Shown: one piece after another, positions 8,134 to 18,964 of the stretch
Layout of the letters: every line of letters starts with the position of its first letter
Numbering within the stretch: the first letter of the stretch is position 1
Origin: a virus
Length of the DNA stretch: 20,128 nt
Virus record (IMG/VR): IMGVR_UViG_3300006789_000253
Location: 1-20,128 of that record
Direction: 5' to 3' (one strand)
Made by a program: the position numbers and the translations under genes
Notes under the pieces: model-generated
The model's database searches: none
What the model was told of the DNA's origin: nothing
Seen by the model: only the letters and a program-made list of their open reading frames with translations

Positions 8134-8378
8134 ATTACCGCCTTAAAGCTGTCACATTTATCGCATCTCAACCAATAGTTATAACGCAAAGGTTGCTTCT
8201 TTAAATGTTTTTTAGTTTTCAATTCTTTACTTATTTCCTTTTCTTCTGTAACTGTCACAGCATCTTGCCAATTGTGTTCACATTTTCTAACAGGGAAACG
8301 CCACCCTGTAGGAACACACCACCTACACAAAGGTGATTGATTAAGACAGCTTGTAGCACATTTCATTTGATGATGCAT
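8130..8378 (-). CDS. Small zinc-ribbon-like protein, unknown function
   Basis: 82 residues from the ATG at 8378, chosen because GGGAGGA lies 4 bases before it and because this ATG overlaps the upstream stop (TAATG); a TTG twelve bases further upstream lies before the ribosome binding site and is rejected. Cysteines occur in the N-terminal half (CATSC, CRWC) and near the C-terminus (RCDKC), consistent with one or two metal-binding knuckles; a basic helix (KELKTKKHLKKQ) lies between. May bind nucleic acid. It sits between two genes for secreted proteins. Confidence 0.55.
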   Translation of the reverse strand: MHHQMKCATSCLNQSPLCRWCVPTGWRFPVRKCEHNWQDAVTVTEEKEISKELKTKKHLKKQPLRYNYWLRCDKCDSFKAVI

Positions 8379-9004
8379 TATTCCTCCCAACAGGATCTAC
8401 TCGGATACCAGTGACTACTGCCGCCATGCAAATTGAAATAAATCCAAGCCGCCATGCCTACATTCGCAACAGGATCAAGAATATGAAAACCGTCAAACAT
8501 TTCGCTTCTCTCAGTTCTTTCAATCCAAAATTTTGGTAAATGCTGAAACCATCCTGAAGCTCCACTAGATTTATTGATTGCTGTTGAATACTTATCTGTC
8601 GGTTTAGCACTCGACTCGCAAAAAGCTATTCTTAAAAACAGTTGGCGGTCACTCCATCTAGGAAAAAACCAGTTTACCAATTCTTCTAAAGTGGGTAGTT
8701 GTTCAATATAAATCTCAGGATCAATCTCACAAGGTTTATTTATCGGACATTCTTCAAGCTTGCCTTGAGCTTCCAGCCACTTGCCATAACTATTAAGATT
8801 AGGTTCTTCTTCAATAACTTTTCTCAAAGGCACTTTCCATACAGGAACAGTTGTCGTAGTTGTTGTAGCTGTAATTACAGCAGGAGCTTGAACTCCATAA
8901 ATTTGAGTTTCGACTAAATTCAAAGGCTCTTGAATAAGAACTGCATCACTAACAACCGTGCAACAAGTAATCGCAAAAGCTGTAACTATTTTCTCAAACA
9001 TCAT
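8378..9004 (-). CDS. Secreted transglycosylase-like (lysozyme-fold) protein
   Basis: 208 residues from the ATG at 9004; ATG at 9001 is equally possible. Residues 4-22 form a signal peptide-like hydrophobic stretch. A Thr-rich linker (TATTTTTTVP) follows. The C-terminal domain (about 115-208) has the lytic transglycosylase pattern: FCESSA with the presumed catalytic Glu130, then a Asn/Ser-Ser-Gly-Ala-Ser-Gly-Trp-Phe-Gln-His run (SSGASGWFQHLPKFW), a DPVANVGMAAW helix and a final HWYPSRSCW. Such enzymes cleave the glycan strands of peptidoglycan. Unlike the main endolysin it sits in the replication operon and carries its own export signal. It overlaps the end of the initiator gene by 11 bases. 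Confidence 0.7.
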   Translation of the reverse strand: MMFEKIVTAFAITCCTVVSDAVLIQEPLNLVETQIYGVQAPAVITATTTTTTVPVWKVPLRKVIEEEPNLNSYGKWLEAQGKLEECPINKPCEIDPEIYIEQLPTLEELVNWFFPRWSDRQLFLRIAFCESSAKPTDKYSTAINKSSGASGWFQHLPKFWIERTERSEMFDGFHILDPVANVGMAAWIYFNLHGGSSHWYPSRSCWEE

Positions 9005-9824
9005 AATTCCATTTACCTTCTTCGCTGTCATATTTAGCAATCGCGCTTCCGTCTGTATCTTTTATTACCATTCCAACAAGGTCAGGATTACTTACGTGAG
9101 GTTTAGGTTTCTCAATTACAAGTGTAGCTTCTCTTTCCAAATCCCTAAATTTTTCAATGTGTTCTGCATCTCGTAAAAGTAAATTTAAAGAATTATAAAT
9201 AGCATTTCTGTCATTTTGACCGCAATAAAAAGGTTCTCGTTTCCACCCAATTACAGCGTCACAAACATCTTCAAAGGAATGGGTTTTAAGTGCTTTTCTT
9301 ATAACGGATCTACGTTTTTCATCTAATTTTGTTCTTTTTGGGTGTTTTTCAGTTGCTTCTACCCATTTTTCAAATACTTTTTCTACTAAATTTGGTTCTT
9401 CTTTTTGGTTATGTTCATTTATTAGGTTAATAGGGGGGACAGTTTCGTCTCCCACAAGGGGTACAGTATTGTCCTCCTCATCGGGGTCAGTTTCGACCCC
9501 CTTATTTATTGGCACTAAAAGAGTATAAAGTGGAGTTGTATCTCTGCCATTTCGAGGATCTTTACGATATTCAACTTCTAAAAGGTTGGCTTTTTCTAAT
9601 TCTCCTCTTGCCCTTCGCAAAGAAGTTTTTGCAGTACCTTCAGGCATTAATTCCAATAATTTCCTACGAGAAGGAAAACATTGGCGTTTATCATTAGCAA
9701 ATTGCGCTAAAGCAATCCAAAGTCTTAAAGCAGTTGGTGATAGTTTTTCGGCTAAAATAGCTGTAGGAAAAATAACTATCTCATTATTTGTCCAACGCCG
9801 CCGTAATTTAGTAGAATCTGTCAT
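8994..9824 (-). CDS. Winged-helix replication initiator-like protein
   Basis: 276 residues. The N-terminal third (about 20-110) resembles a winged helix-turn-helix of phage replication initiators: AILAEKLSPTALRLWIALAQFANDKRQCFPSRRKLLELM...TSLRRARGELEKANLL. An acidic low-complexity linker (about 112-140) contains an eight-residue periodicity and corresponds to three 24-bp DNA repeats. The C-terminal part (VFEKWVEATEKHPKRTKLDEKRRSVIRKAL...NAIYNSLNLLLRDAEHIEKF) matches the helical domain seen in actinophage and DnaD/replisome-organiser-type proteins. The likely role is binding the phage origin and loading host helicase. The gene lies downstream of the RecT-like gene in one leftward operon. Confidence 0.7.
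   Translation of the reverse strand: MTDSTKLRRRWTNNEIVIFPTAILAEKLSPTALRLWIALAQFANDKRQCFPSRRKLLELMPEGTAKTSLRRARGELEKANLLEVEYRKDPRNGRDTTPLYTLLVPINKGVETDPDEEDNTVPLVGDETVPPINLINEHNQKEEPNLVEKVFEKWVEATEKHPKRTKLDEKRRSVIRKALKTHSFEDVCDAVIGWKREPFYCGQNDRNAIYNSLNLLLRDAEHIEKFRDLEREATLVIEKPKPHVSNPDLVGMVIKDTDGSAIAKYDSEEGKWNYDV
9435..9506. repeat. Three 24-bp iteron-like repeats with dyads; candidate replication origin
   Basis: Three head-to-tail units start at 9435, 9459 and 9483. Units 1 and 3 agree at 17 of 24 positions and units 1 and 2 at 16. Each has a core CAGT and an internal inverted repeat: GGGGTC-AGTTTC-GACCCC in unit 3, the same loop with A:T swapped for T:A in unit 1, and an imperfect version in unit 2. 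About 55 bp of A+T-rich DNA lies on the low-coordinate side (9376-9432). The repeats fall in the linker-coding part of the initiator gene. Confidence 0.5.
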
Positions 9825-9848
9825 GTATACCGTTACCCTTATATACAG

Positions 9849-9881
9849 TGGTCGGGGGGTTATTCCCTAGCCCCCCGACCA
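9849..9881. other. Strong GC-rich hairpin in the RecT-initiator gap
   Basis: An 11-bp perfect inverted repeat (GGTCGGGGGG with its complement, plus a closing T:A pair) with an 11-base loop lies between the stop of the RecT-like gene and the start of the initiator gene. Neither strand shows a clean run of T after the stem, so it may be an attenuator, processing site or mRNA-stabilising hairpin, or a poor terminator. Confidence 0.6.
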
Positions 9882-9892
9882 AAACTTTTCCC

Positions 9893-10609
9893 TTATAGAA
9901 TTACCGATTGTAACTCCTCAAGTAGCCTAAGTACATCTAATCTGAGTATTTTTTCAGAATTTGCAAATTCTAATTCCCAAATATCTTTGGCTTCTTCTTT
10001 GTTACCTCCGACTGCATCTAATATGAGATGTTTAGCTTCAGCTATTGAAATTTCATCTTCAGAAATTTCTTCTTTAGATTCCATTCCAATAACTTCACCT
10101 GTATGTGTTACTTCAGCACCAAGTTCTTCAGGAACATATCCTGCACCTAAAACAACATCAGGAAATAACACACGACAGAGTTTAGAAACTGCTCTCCAAG
10201 TCAGCATTGCTTCTTGGTATTGTTTCCAATTTCTTTTATCTGCTAAACCAGCCGCTTCAGCATCTTCCATTGTGAAAGTTGCTACATGCTCATCTGCGGT
10301 ATCAGCACGTTTGCCTGTAGCTTGTGCATAAGTTTCTGTTGTTTCTAAAGTAACAGAATGACCTGCTTGTCTAACAAGACCCAACATTGATTCAGGTCGT
10401 AAACTTGCAGAGCCTTCTATAACATGAAACTGTCTCATGCTTGTCATTACATCCCATCCATAGGCTCGACCCGCAAGTCCAGCCGCTACAATATCAGCGG
10501 CTTTACGCCTATAAGAACTGGGAATAATAGTTGAATTAGCTAAAATATCTGCTTGTCTCATAATGAGATCAAACGAAGCTGTTTCACTAATAGGTATTAA
10601 TTCTGACAT
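9893..10609 (-). CDS. RecT-like single-strand annealing / recombination protein
   Basis: 238 residues from the ATG at 10609, which overlaps the preceding stop (TGATG); an upstream in-frame start would add 18 Cys-rich residues and is not favoured. The protein follows the pattern of RecT-type proteins of actinophages: an N-terminal helical region ending in AGLAGRAYGWDVMTSMRQFHVIEGSASLRPESMLGLVRQAGH, then EHVATFTMEDAEAAGLADKRNWKQYQEAMLTWRAVSKLCRVLFPDVVLGAGYVPEEL, and an acidic variable tail. RecT proteins pair homologous single strands during phage recombination and replication. The companion nuclease is not evident next to it, though a PD-(D/E)XK candidate lies in the divergent operon. Strong call at family level. 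Confidence 0.8.
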   Translation of the reverse strand: MSELIPISETASFDLIMRQADILANSTIIPSSYRRKAADIVAAGLAGRAYGWDVMTSMRQFHVIEGSASLRPESMLGLVRQAGHSVTLETTETYAQATGKRADTADEHVATFTMEDAEAAGLADKRNWKQYQEAMLTWRAVSKLCRVLFPDVVLGAGYVPEELGAEVTHTGEVIGMESKEEISEDEISIAEAKHLILDAVGGNKEEAKDIWELEFANSEKILRLDVLRLLEELQSVIL

Positions 10610-11115
10610 CACAACACCCCAGCACTTGTAAGTTTCACAGATGCAACAAACTCTCTTGAACAAAAATCGTCATCATTAACCCCAAGATTTTTCAGTTCAG
10701 TCCATTTAGGTTCTGAACGGAAGCATCTTTTATGCAACTCTAAAGCTGTTGCATCTGATGAACGTAATTCACCAGTTTCAGGATTCATGCGTAAATCTTC
10801 TAAGTGAGCGCATTTAGCCACATATTTTTCTAAACCTTCACGGTCTATATTTGTGCGCCGATAAGAACCAGTCTTTTCAGCGATTAGCCCACTAGGAAGA
10901 ACTACTCTTTGTTCTCCTCGTTTATCCATTTGCATATTTGCAAGTGTTTTTGCCGCTGTAACGGCAAAACGTATATTGCGATTGGCTTTATCAAGCTGAT
11001 CTATAATTTCAATCAGTTTTGCTAAATCCTCAAAGTCAGAATCAGAATCTGAAAACTCATCTAACAGAGCTTCAGACATATCATTTAGCTCGGAAGCTAA
11101 TTTTAATGTTTCCAA
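10609..11115 (-). CDS. RecT-operon leader protein, unknown function (TTG start)
   Basis: 168 residues. The start codon is TTG, supported by an AGGAG ribosome binding site 6 bases upstream; an ATG 36 bases inside has no such site. The N-terminal 70 residues are helical and acidic (EALLDEFSDSDSDFEDLAKLIEIIDQLDKANRN). A basic middle part (KRGEQRVVLPSGLIAEKTGSYRRTNIDREGLEKYV) and a C-terminal segment with CFRSEPKWTELKNLGVNDDDFCSREFVASVKL follow. It is the first gene of the leftward replication operon and overlaps the RecT start. It is probably a recombination accessory protein by position; no family recognised. Confidence 0.55.
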   Translation of the reverse strand: METLKLASELNDMSEALLDEFSDSDSDFEDLAKLIEIIDQLDKANRNIRFAVTAAKTLANMQMDKRGEQRVVLPSGLIAEKTGSYRRTNIDREGLEKYVAKCAHLEDLRMNPETGELRSSDATALELHKRCFRSEPKWTELKNLGVNDDDFCSREFVASVKLTSAGVL

Positions 11116-11526: not shown

Positions 11527-11745
11527 ATGGAAACAAAAACAACACGTATTTATTGGAAAAAAGCCGAATTAACTAAAGAACAAGCTCTTAATAAATGTGA
11601 AGCTGAAGAATTGTTCTATGACTTGCTTAATGACATCAAGGTAACTGACTCAAAGAATCTTGTGGAAGTTTTAAACTTCACAAAATTCCACATAGACAAA
11701 TGGTTAAAGGAAAATCAATTAGACACTTATGGAGATGAAAGCTGA
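11527..11745 (+). CDS. Small early protein, unknown function
   Basis: 72 residues starting at the ATG one base after the previous stop; a longer frame upstream overlaps the previous gene and lacks support. It begins METKTT like the preceding protein, is rich in Lys/Glu/Leu, and looks wholly helical (TKEQALNKCEAEELFYDLLNDIKV). It ends with LDTYGDES; the LDTYG sequence also occurs in the previous protein. The two may be related small early proteins. TGATG overlap with the WhiB gene downstream indicates coupling. Confidence 0.55.
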   Translation: METKTTRIYWKKAELTKEQALNKCEAEELFYDLLNDIKVTDSKNLVEVLNFTKFHIDKWLKENQLDTYGDES

Positions 11746-12002
11746 TGGAGGGATTTTTAGATAGGGAATTTACTCCTGCTCCATTTATGGACAATGCCGC
11801 TTGTAAAAATGCAGACCCTGATGTGTTTTTTGTTAATAAAGGAGATACAGGGATTGCGGCTAAAAAACTTTGTGAATCCTGTCCTGTAAAACAAGCTTGT
11901 CTAGATTTTGCTATTCAAACTCACGAACGGTTTGGAATTTGGGGTGGAATGAATTTCGCTGAACGAACTAGAGAAGCTAGAAGAAGAAGAAAGGCTATCT
12001 GA
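11745..12002 (+). CDS. WhiB-family iron-sulfur transcription factor (1 of 4)
   Basis: 85 residues with the complete WhiB signature: Cys20, Cys43, Cys46 and Cys52 (LCESCPVKQACLD) for a [4Fe-4S] cluster, the GIWGG turn at 64-68, and a basic Arg-rich tail (RTREARRRRKA) for DNA contact. WhiB proteins act with the host primary sigma factor (region 4 of SigA) and are limited to Actinobacteria and their phages. It starts in the previous stop (TGATG) and its stop overlaps the next WhiB start the same way. Likely role: redirecting or repressing host transcription during infection. Confidence 0.92.
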   Translation: MEGFLDREFTPAPFMDNAACKNADPDVFFVNKGDTGIAAKKLCESCPVKQACLDFAIQTHERFGIWGGMNFAERTREARRRRKAI

Positions 12003-12229
12003 TGGCAGATTGGGTGAAACATGCGGCTTGCAAAGACATGAGTTCAAATGTTTTCTTTTCACAAAGAGGAGAATCTACTGAACCTGCGAAACAGGTTTGC
12101 GAAAATTGTCCTGTTAAAGAACCTTGTTTAGATTATGCACTTGCTAATAATGAAACAATAGGTGTTTGGGGTGGGATGTCACGCCGCCAAAGAAGAATTG
12201 AAGCTCAAAGAAGAAAGCAAGCTGTATGA
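12002..12229 (+). CDS. WhiB-family iron-sulfur transcription factor (2 of 4)
   Basis: 75 residues with Cys10, Cys33, Cys36 and Cys42 (VCENCPVKEPCLD), a GVWGG turn at 54-58 and a basic tail (RRQRRIEAQRRKQA). Coupled to the WhiB gene before it by a TGATG overlap and to the nuclease candidate after it by an ATGA overlap. The two tandem copies are clearly paralogous but differ outside the Cys and WGG motifs, so they may have different promoter or sigma partners. Confidence 0.92.
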   Translation: MADWVKHAACKDMSSNVFFSQRGESTEPAKQVCENCPVKEPCLDYALANNETIGVWGGMSRRQRRIEAQRRKQAV

Positions 12230-18088: not shown

Positions 18089-18352
18089 CAACTAAATAAT
18101 GAACATATGGTTTGAAGGTTCACGGATGAACCGGACATAGATCCTAAGATTAAATTCGGGGAGTCGGGTAGTTGAAGTGACACAAAAAAATAAGTTTACC
18201 TTCGGGATTCTATATAGATAATTTGTGACACCAGCCTTCAAAACTTTTGCAGACACAGGGAGCCTCCTCGGTTCGTTTTTCCCATCAGAAAAACCTGTGT
18301 TTGCCAAGGGGTCAGGATGATTAGGTCGAGCTAACATCCTGACCCCTTTTTA
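18085..18352 (+). ncRNA. Candidate structured non-coding RNA region
   Basis: About 260 bases without a credible gene, between the DUF932 gene and a convergent WhiB gene. A TTGACA box at 18085-18090 is followed 15 bases later by TATGGT, a possible promoter. Downstream are: hairpin GGTTC/GAACC (18117-18132); an 8-bp long-range pairing of 18111-18118 with 18235-18242, which competes with that hairpin; an 11-bp stem, 18249-18259 with 18294-18304 (one G-U), enclosing a 6-bp hairpin TTTTTC/GAAAAA; and a strong terminator. A 7-base direct repeat GTGACAC occurs at 18177 and 18225. No tRNA, tmRNA or known RNA class was recognised. It could instead be a long 3' untranslated region. Confidence 0.45.
18306..18351 (+). 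terminator. Strong intrinsic terminator
   Basis: A 13-bp perfect stem (AAGGGGTCAGGAT with its complement) with a 17-base loop that can itself pair (TTAG/CTAA), followed by five T. It ends rightward transcription from the DUF932 unit or the candidate RNA. Its T-run overlaps the stop codon of the leftward WhiB gene, so the stem may also act on that strand, though there only two T follow. Confidence 0.85.
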
Positions 18353-18577
18353 TTCTTCTATATGGCGTTTATATGCTCTGCGTTTCGATTCAGTTAAACC
18401 TCCCCAAATACCATGAGCAAGATTTTCTTTCAGGGCATAGTCAAGACATTTTTGTTGAATCGGGCATTGGTTACAAATGAAAATCGCTACATCAAATTTG
18501 CCACCTTGTTCAGGAAACCACCATTTTGTTGGAAAACCTTTGCAGATAGCTTTATCTTGCCAAGCAAAAATCCCCAT
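18350..18577 (-). CDS. WhiB-family iron-sulfur transcription factor (3 of 4)
   Basis: 75 residues. Cys12, Cys35, Cys38 and Cys44 (ICNQCPIQQKCLD), the turn GIWGG at 56-60, and a basic tail (SKRRAYKRH) are all present. The segment KWWFPEQGGKFD between the first and second Cys is typical of WhiB. Its ATG directly follows the stop of the upstream WhiB gene (TGAATG), so the two are one leftward unit. Confidence 0.92.
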   Translation of the reverse strand: MGIFAWQDKAICKGFPTKWWFPEQGGKFDVAIFICNQCPIQQKCLDYALKENLAHGIWGGLTESKRRAYKRHIEE

Positions 18578-18964
18578 TCATTTAGCTGAGTTCATATTAA
18601 AGGGAATATGGTCAGCGGTTCCTCTCCCTTTAAGGTTAGTAGAATTTTTATATTTATCCCATAATTTGGATCTTATTTCTACTCTGCCGTTCACAGTTGT
18701 GCCGCCCCAAATTCCGTATCGTTCCATTACTGTTACAGAGTAATCGAGACATTCTTTTTCAACGTCACAGTTGTTGCAGATTTTTTTAGTTTCTCTAGTT
18801 TGATAAGACGAGCCTGTTGGTTCAGGAAAAAAAAGATTCGTGTCCATTCCTTTACAAGCGGCTTTTTGTCGCCATGAATGGGTGATTGTTTTGCCTTCAA
18901 AATTAGGATGGCTTCTTCCTGATCTGTATTCAATAAGCCAGTGTCGGCGTTTTTCTTTTCCCAT
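18578..18964 (-). CDS. WhiB-family iron-sulfur transcription factor with terminal extensions (4 of 4)
   Basis: 128 residues, the longest of the four. The WhiB core spans about 30-90: Cys37, Cys63, Cys66, Cys72 (ICNNCDVEKECLD) and GIWGG at 84-88. A 28-residue basic N-terminal extension (MGKEKRRHWLIEYRSGRSHP) and a 40-residue C-terminal extension with NGRVEIRSKLWDKYKNS are additional. CDVEK replaces the usual CPV at the second Cys pair. The start ATGGGAAAA is the same sequence that follows the three shared rightward promoters. It is the first gene of the leftward WhiB pair and divergent from the gene at 19123. Confidence 0.88.
   Translation of the reverse strand: MGKEKRRHWLIEYRSGRSHPNFEGKTITHSWRQKAACKGMDTNLFFPEPTGSSYQTRETKKICNNCDVEKECLDYSVTVMERYGIWGGTTVNGRVEIRSKLWDKYKNSTNLKGRGTADHIPFNMNSAK

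Follow-up and report, generated by a model that had tools for sequence, protein, structure and literature searches.

The DNA analysed here, a stretch of 20,128 nucleotides referred to as the window, carries an O-like replication initiator gene that is preceded by a RecT-like gene (9893-10615) and followed by a gene (8378-9016) without a Pfam or PHROG match (Table 1). Pfam HTH_36 matches residues 27-82 of the initiator (E 7.6e-9), and among PHROG families it matches those for replication initiation, O-like proteins and DnaD-like helicase loaders. A PDB sequence search with the initiator gave zero matches, and Foldseek returned weak winged-helix matches (the N-terminal domain of DnaD and the Rep-DNA complex 5kbj), none of them at E<=0.001. 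The AF2 model is modest overall (mean pLDDT 60.6, pTM 0.34) and consists of an N-terminal winged helix, a linker and a helical C-terminal part; pLDDT is mostly 70-84 in the N-terminal domain and below 50, at about 30, in the linker (residues 107-143), which is predicted to be disordered. The winged-helix domain is presumed to be the iteron-binding domain, and the C-terminal domain is presumed to recruit a helicase or its loader.

Table 1. Coordinates of the initiator gene and of the features in and around it
Feature	Position	Strand	Basis or detail
Replication initiator gene, 276 aa, O-like	8994..9824	-	Pfam HTH_36, PHROG families, relatives L001-L007, L009-L013, L018
N-terminal winged-helix domain, aa 21-104	9513..9764	-	HTH_36 aa 27-82; AF2 pLDDT; weak Foldseek matches
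Iteron unit 1, TAAGGGGGTCGAAACTGACCCCGA (gene sense)	9481..9504	-	dyad 9482-9501, GGGGTC-GAAACT-GACCCC
Iteron unit 2, TGAGGAGGACAATACTGTACCCCT (gene sense)	9457..9480	-	dyad 9458-9477, imperfect
Iteron unit 3, TGTGGGAGACGAAACTGTCCCCCC (gene sense)	9433..9456	-	dyad 9434-9453
Junction element, two tandem 13-mers TAACCTAATAAAT GAACATAACCAAA, family form GAACCTAAnnAAt	9404..9429	-	synonymous constraint; 13-bp lag
A+T-rich stretch, 80% A+T	9365..9424		joint A+T-richest 60 bp of the 20-kb window
C-terminal helical domain, aa 145-235	9120..9392	-	part matched by distant homologues
Initiator leader, two hairpins	9825..9881	-	long 9849-9881; short 9825-9846 with Shine-Dalgarno sequence in loop

The window also encodes an SSB and a RusA-like resolvase. 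Four WhiB genes lie within 20 kb, as two tandem pairs (window 11745-12229 and 18350-18964). Phages of Gordonia, Propionibacterium, Microbacterium and Arthrobacter encode RecT proteins similar to that of the window, and from this resemblance together with the WhiB/SSB/RusA-like gene content we infer that the host is probably an actinobacterium. No P-like loader was recognised in the product of the gene downstream of the initiator (Pfam, PHROG), nor in a Pfam scan of early proteins from G001 (L002), a 53.5-kb relative whose ends repeat over ~119 bp. Since none of the proteins scanned in G001 belongs to a recognised helicase, primase, polymerase or loader family, the phage presumably recruits the replisome of its host.

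Within the initiator's own coding sequence, codons 107-130, located after the HTH_36 match and before the C-terminal helices, are made up of three 24-bp units, each of which contains a hyphenated dyad; 6, 5 and 6 of the 7 stem pairs are formed in units 1, 2 and 3, respectively. We number the units in gene sense, while the earlier note had counted them on the plus strand, so that its unit 1 is the dyad at 9434-9453 and its unit 3 the one at 9482-9501. Because the units are only ~68% alike, a generic repeat finder missed the array. Nevertheless, when the linker was recoded 20,000 times with the peptide kept and with the gene's own codon usage, both the likeness between the units (49/72 identical positions against a null mean of 39.6, p=0.0012) and the pairing within them (17/21 dyad pairs against a null mean of 7.3, p<=5e-5) exceeded the expectation. 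The dyads of the window remained significant when register and loop were left free (p<=5e-4), and other 24-bp-spaced triples in the gene reached at most 12 dyad pairs. The three units are the sole occurrences in the window, two long relatives hold no copies elsewhere, and GC3 is 0.54 in the units and ~0.17 across the remainder of the gene. The earlier description of three 24-bp repeats in the linker of the initiator gene, next to A+T-rich DNA, is hence correct, and these repeats go beyond what the synonymous null yields. A scan of all viral contigs with the motif GGGGWCGAAACNGWCCCC gave 33 single matches, only three of them in initiator relatives and the others without tandem copies, and the isolated motif was consequently judged unspecific.

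Three scans of viral contigs provided relatives of the initiator with 56-91% identity, plus one identical contig; those from IMG/VR are assembled contigs, several of them fragmentary. No prophage relatives were found in bacterial genomes, and a DNA-level search of isolated phages gave zero matches. In each of the 12 genomes in which the linker could be read (the window and 11 diverged relatives), there are exactly three units at 24-bp spacing that end just before an Asn-Leu motif, and this array persists while the A+T content of the genomes spans 36-61%. The core of the unit is mostly kept (GGGGAC or GAGAGC, then GAAA or CAAA), whereas the linker peptide differs, as illustrated by VETDPDEE in the window, DEMTPLEE in L005 and DQNRRGEG in L010. 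At fixed register, dyad pairing lies above the synonymous null in 12/12 genomes (p 5e-5 to 0.046); at free register, the dyads are not significant in L005, L007, L010, L011 and L018. Among 31 distinct units, 70.5% of the cells at dyad positions are paired (shuffles, 64.8%; slid registers, 50.7% or less). Double changes occupy 15 cells of the stems where shuffles give 6.9, a count that none of 500 shuffles attained and that tops all slid registers; as the unit sequences are related, these covariation figures are to be read as support and not as a probability. Judged from these comparisons, the conserved element is the unit, with its GGGGAC arm and A-rich centre, and not a perfect dyad, the second half-site being looser. 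The comparison of homologues proposed in the earlier note, dyads versus peptide, therefore came out in favor of units that are kept while the peptide changes, but perfect dyads are not present in every genome. Likewise, its suggestion of selection on the dyad rather than the peptide is consistent with constraint at the DNA level, evident from recoding and from synonymous sites, but it is the unit that is conserved, with weak dyads in about five relatives.

The earlier note correctly read a paired change at stem position 5, with T:A in the dyad at 9482-9501 and A:T in that at 9434-9453. However, A:T is the common form at this position elsewhere, so that only one or two swap events are involved, and unit-to-unit conversion could account for them. 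In the 88% identical relative L003, T:A is also present in the unit at 9434-9453, owing to two nonsynonymous substitutions (D to V, V to D); these reflect either compensation or conversion between units.

Constraint on the DNA is also evident from synonymous sites. Across nine lineages, identical codons at sites with the same amino acid are 1.5- to 2.5-fold over the codon-usage expectation at codons 105-141 and ~1 over most of the gene, with smaller rises near codons 1-10, 25-31, 51, 73-79 and 205-211. A further peak, near codons 238-258, was discounted because L004 and L005 share the 3' end of the window's gene in a recombination- or assembly-like manner at contig ends. The proteins of these two relatives are 72-76% identical to that of the window, yet their last ~80 coding bases are nearly letter-for-letter the same; this looks like a recombination event or an assembly join. 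The highest synonymous constraint of the gene, with z values of 12-14 that treat related sequence pairs as independent, is found at codons 127-138, at the junction between the array and the A+T-rich stretch and outside the units, and follows the pattern CCT-nnn-AACCTA-Ann-AAT-GAAC. Here, where the iterons give way to the A+T-rich stretch, lie two conserved tandem 13-mers, which the earlier note had not described; in L010 they read GAACCTAACCAAA GAACCTGAACAGA. A lag of 13 is the best in 9/12 genomes, with p<0.03 against synonymous recoding in six and a weak signal in the window itself (p=0.18), and these p values are optimistic, as the lag was spotted in the data before it was tested. Since 13 is not a multiple of three, a repeat in the peptide cannot produce these 13-mers. 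By analogy with the 13-mers of bacterial oriC, they might tentatively be regarded as a sequence-specific melting and strand-loading element that is read by the initiator or by a host protein. If true, a two-part origin of iterons and sequence-specific unwinding repeats would be contained in one open reading frame.

The A+T-rich stretch at 9365-9424 is the presumed duplex unwinding element; across 9376-9430 the A+T content is 76%. The homologous 60 bp directly after the array are the joint A+T maximum in G001 and G003, tied for the top in L009 and L018, and within the top 0.7% in G002. In L010 and L012, with 63-64% G+C, this stretch is the A+T maximum of the entire 6.7-kb locus, and its A+T content exceeds the synonymous null in L010, L011 and L012 (p 0.01-0.02). 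In the A+T-rich genomes it is no higher than the peptide alone would yield, a finding that counts against the origin reading. GC skew, which the earlier note had proposed as a check of the origin, turned out to be uninformative: GC skew and GC3 skew in the 53.5- and 49.7-kb relatives either track gene direction or are noise, and give no origin signal.

Distant O-like homologues in isolated phages, which match the C-terminal part of the initiator, contain iteron-like arrays with a 22-bp or 21-bp period in the same linker, followed directly by an A+T maximum in 2/4 of them. In Parageobacillus phage JGon-2020a, the gene contains exact 22-bp repeats and reaches its highest A+T content just after them. 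The sites in Flyfo siphovirus Tbat2_3 are of the lambda type, CCCCAAAAATGGGG, and two of them are spaced 22 bp. Repeats of 21 bp occupy the homologous linker in Marinomonas phage P12026 and Vibrio phage vB_ValP_FGH; in P12026, a P-like gene and a DnaB-like helicase gene come after the initiator homologue. As a 22-bp period is out of codon phase, a peptide repeat cannot explain these distant arrays.

The region between recT and the initiator gene contains two hairpins in every lineage checked (L002, L003, L005, L007, L009, L010 and L012, with L011 similar); their position is kept while their sequence has changed. The long hairpin has a stem of 10-14 bp across lineages (TGGTCGGGGGG...CCCCCCGACCA in the window), and the short one has a ~5-bp stem, presents the Shine-Dalgarno sequence in its loop and ends 0-3 nt before the start codon. 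These hairpins probably control initiator expression. An Rfam search with them gave zero matches. In layout they are reminiscent of the ESAS/SAS elements in Cluster K mycobacteriophages, GGGATAGGAGCCC (PMC3203893), and L011 has GGGATGGAGACCC; in the phages studied here the layout is seen once per genome.

Collectively, these comparisons make it very probable that the array and the A+T-rich stretch constitute the replication origin of the phage, placed inside its own initiator gene as an intragenic origin of the lambda type. The three 24-bp iterons would be recognised by the winged-helix N-terminal domain, which probably sits on the dyad as a dimer; the core of the site would be the GGGGAC half-site together with the A-rich centre. 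Cooperative binding would strain the adjoining A+T-rich stretch, melting would start at the GAACCTAAnnAAt 13-mers, and the C-terminal domain would bring the replicative helicase of the host, either directly or via an unrecognised loader. Because the iteron DNA is also translated, it lies in the predicted disordered linker between the domains, where the protein can accept nearly any sequence.

The earlier note had named a repetitive acidic linker peptide as the competing explanation, with the DNA repeats as a by-product of an 8-residue period. That 24 bp equal 8 codons and that the linker is acidic in several relatives would fit such a peptide, but the dyads and a large part of the repeat vanish on synonymous recoding, the peptide changes strongly while the core of the unit stays, synonymous sites are most constrained at precisely this linker, and distant homologues have repeats of 22 bp. 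On these comparative grounds, the peptide explanation is largely excluded, and we give it hardly any credence. We likewise consider it very unlikely that the dyads work at the RNA level, as hairpins of the initiator transcript with a part in, for instance, translation or mRNA decay. The stem pairs covary and the hairpins of the window would be stable; yet the sequence is better conserved than the pairing, including in the loop (A12 is invariant and A14 nearly so), several units cannot pair, and the adjoining 13-mers and A+T island require an explanation at the level of DNA. The leader hairpins exemplify what constraint on structure alone looks like, with pairing kept and sequence free.

A different role of the same DNA would be that the repeats are initiator-binding sites for control, by autorepression, titration or handcuffing, while the true origin is located elsewhere. 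The repeats bound by plasmid initiators also serve control, and the elaborate leader suggests that expression of the initiator is probably regulated. Sites over 300 bp past the start codon are poorly suited for repression, however, the A+T island and the 13-mers that adjoin the array are also conserved, and neither the window nor the long relatives contain a second array of units. We therefore regard a purely regulatory array as unlikely, and retain the intragenic origin as the preferred reading.

In lambda, the O protein binds imperfect inverted-repeat iterons within gene O, and an adjoining 40-bp A+T-rich region opens (PMC5043065, PMC7466680). The locus studied here is similar in that the putative origin elements lie in the middle of the initiator gene with an A+T-rich tract adjoining the iterons, in that each of these forms a hyphenated dyad whose G/C arms enclose an A-rich centre, and in that an N-terminal DNA-binding domain is combined with a presumed C-terminal recruiting domain. 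Imperfect inverted repeats of ~18-19 bp per iteron, as expected of the lambda type, are present in the window and are not significant at free register in five relatives. Unlike in lambda, the iteron sequence is unrelated, three units at fixed 24-bp spacing replace four (six in Stx phages), the junction 13-mers are an addition, the downstream gene is no recognisable P, and the host is probably actinobacterial. The lambda-type motif ATCCCCAAAAATGGGGAT, present in the Flyfo phage Tbat2_3, is absent here. The lambda-like reading of the earlier note, with initiator-binding iterons and an unwinding stretch in the initiator gene, thus gains support from comparative evidence, from which binding by the initiator is inferred. 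The system fits the broad kind known from lambda, with in-gene iterons, dyads, an A+T tract and selection at the DNA level; as it has no recognisable P gene and no lambda-like iterons, we do not call it a lambdoid O/P system.

The initiator shares its domain families with DnaD-like/HTH_36 phage initiators (PHROGs 270, 345, 186 and others; JGon-2020a), and JGon-2020a also has tandem repeats (22 bp) in the gene; its initiator differs in the sequence and period of the repeats and is 32% identical over 47% of the protein. Direct repeats next to an A+T-rich region are likewise found in iteron plasmid origins of the RepA, pi and TrfA type, where a replicon-specific initiator binds them. The iterons of plasmids are, as a rule, helically phased and bound by monomers (PMC5043065), in contrast to the intragenic dyads found here; the 24-bp spacing of the latter is not near a whole number of helical turns, which counts against the origin reading.

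The kind of origin is known, and the example from this phage group is new; a literature search, with most subscription journals outside it, found no paper on the origin of this group. An uncultured, probably actinobacterial phage group thereby gains a defined candidate origin. The linker is also a clear example of amino acids that follow a code of DNA sites, in that three sites of fixed spacing stay while the peptide drifts and the A+T content of the genome shifts from 61 to 36%. In-gene iterons, as the relatives show, extend well beyond lambdoid phages, and origins in unannotated phages can thus be sought via synonymous-site constraint in O-like genes.

Several other repeats were encountered. 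The 30-bp repeats containing GTTGCAAGCGCAACAA at L007:5460-5580, in a gene near the initiator, encode a Thr/Ala/Pro-rich peptide repeat and were judged to be an ordinary coding repeat. Several 24-bp repeats of the TCGGGGCGCTGC type at L063:1731-1840 (Propionibacterium phage B22 gp37), in a gene of unknown function upstream of recT, were also judged to be a coding repeat. A single further long perfect inverted repeat exists in the window, with 14-bp arms AAGGGGTCAGGATG...CATCCTGACCCCTT at 18306-18348; it is intergenic and probably a terminator.
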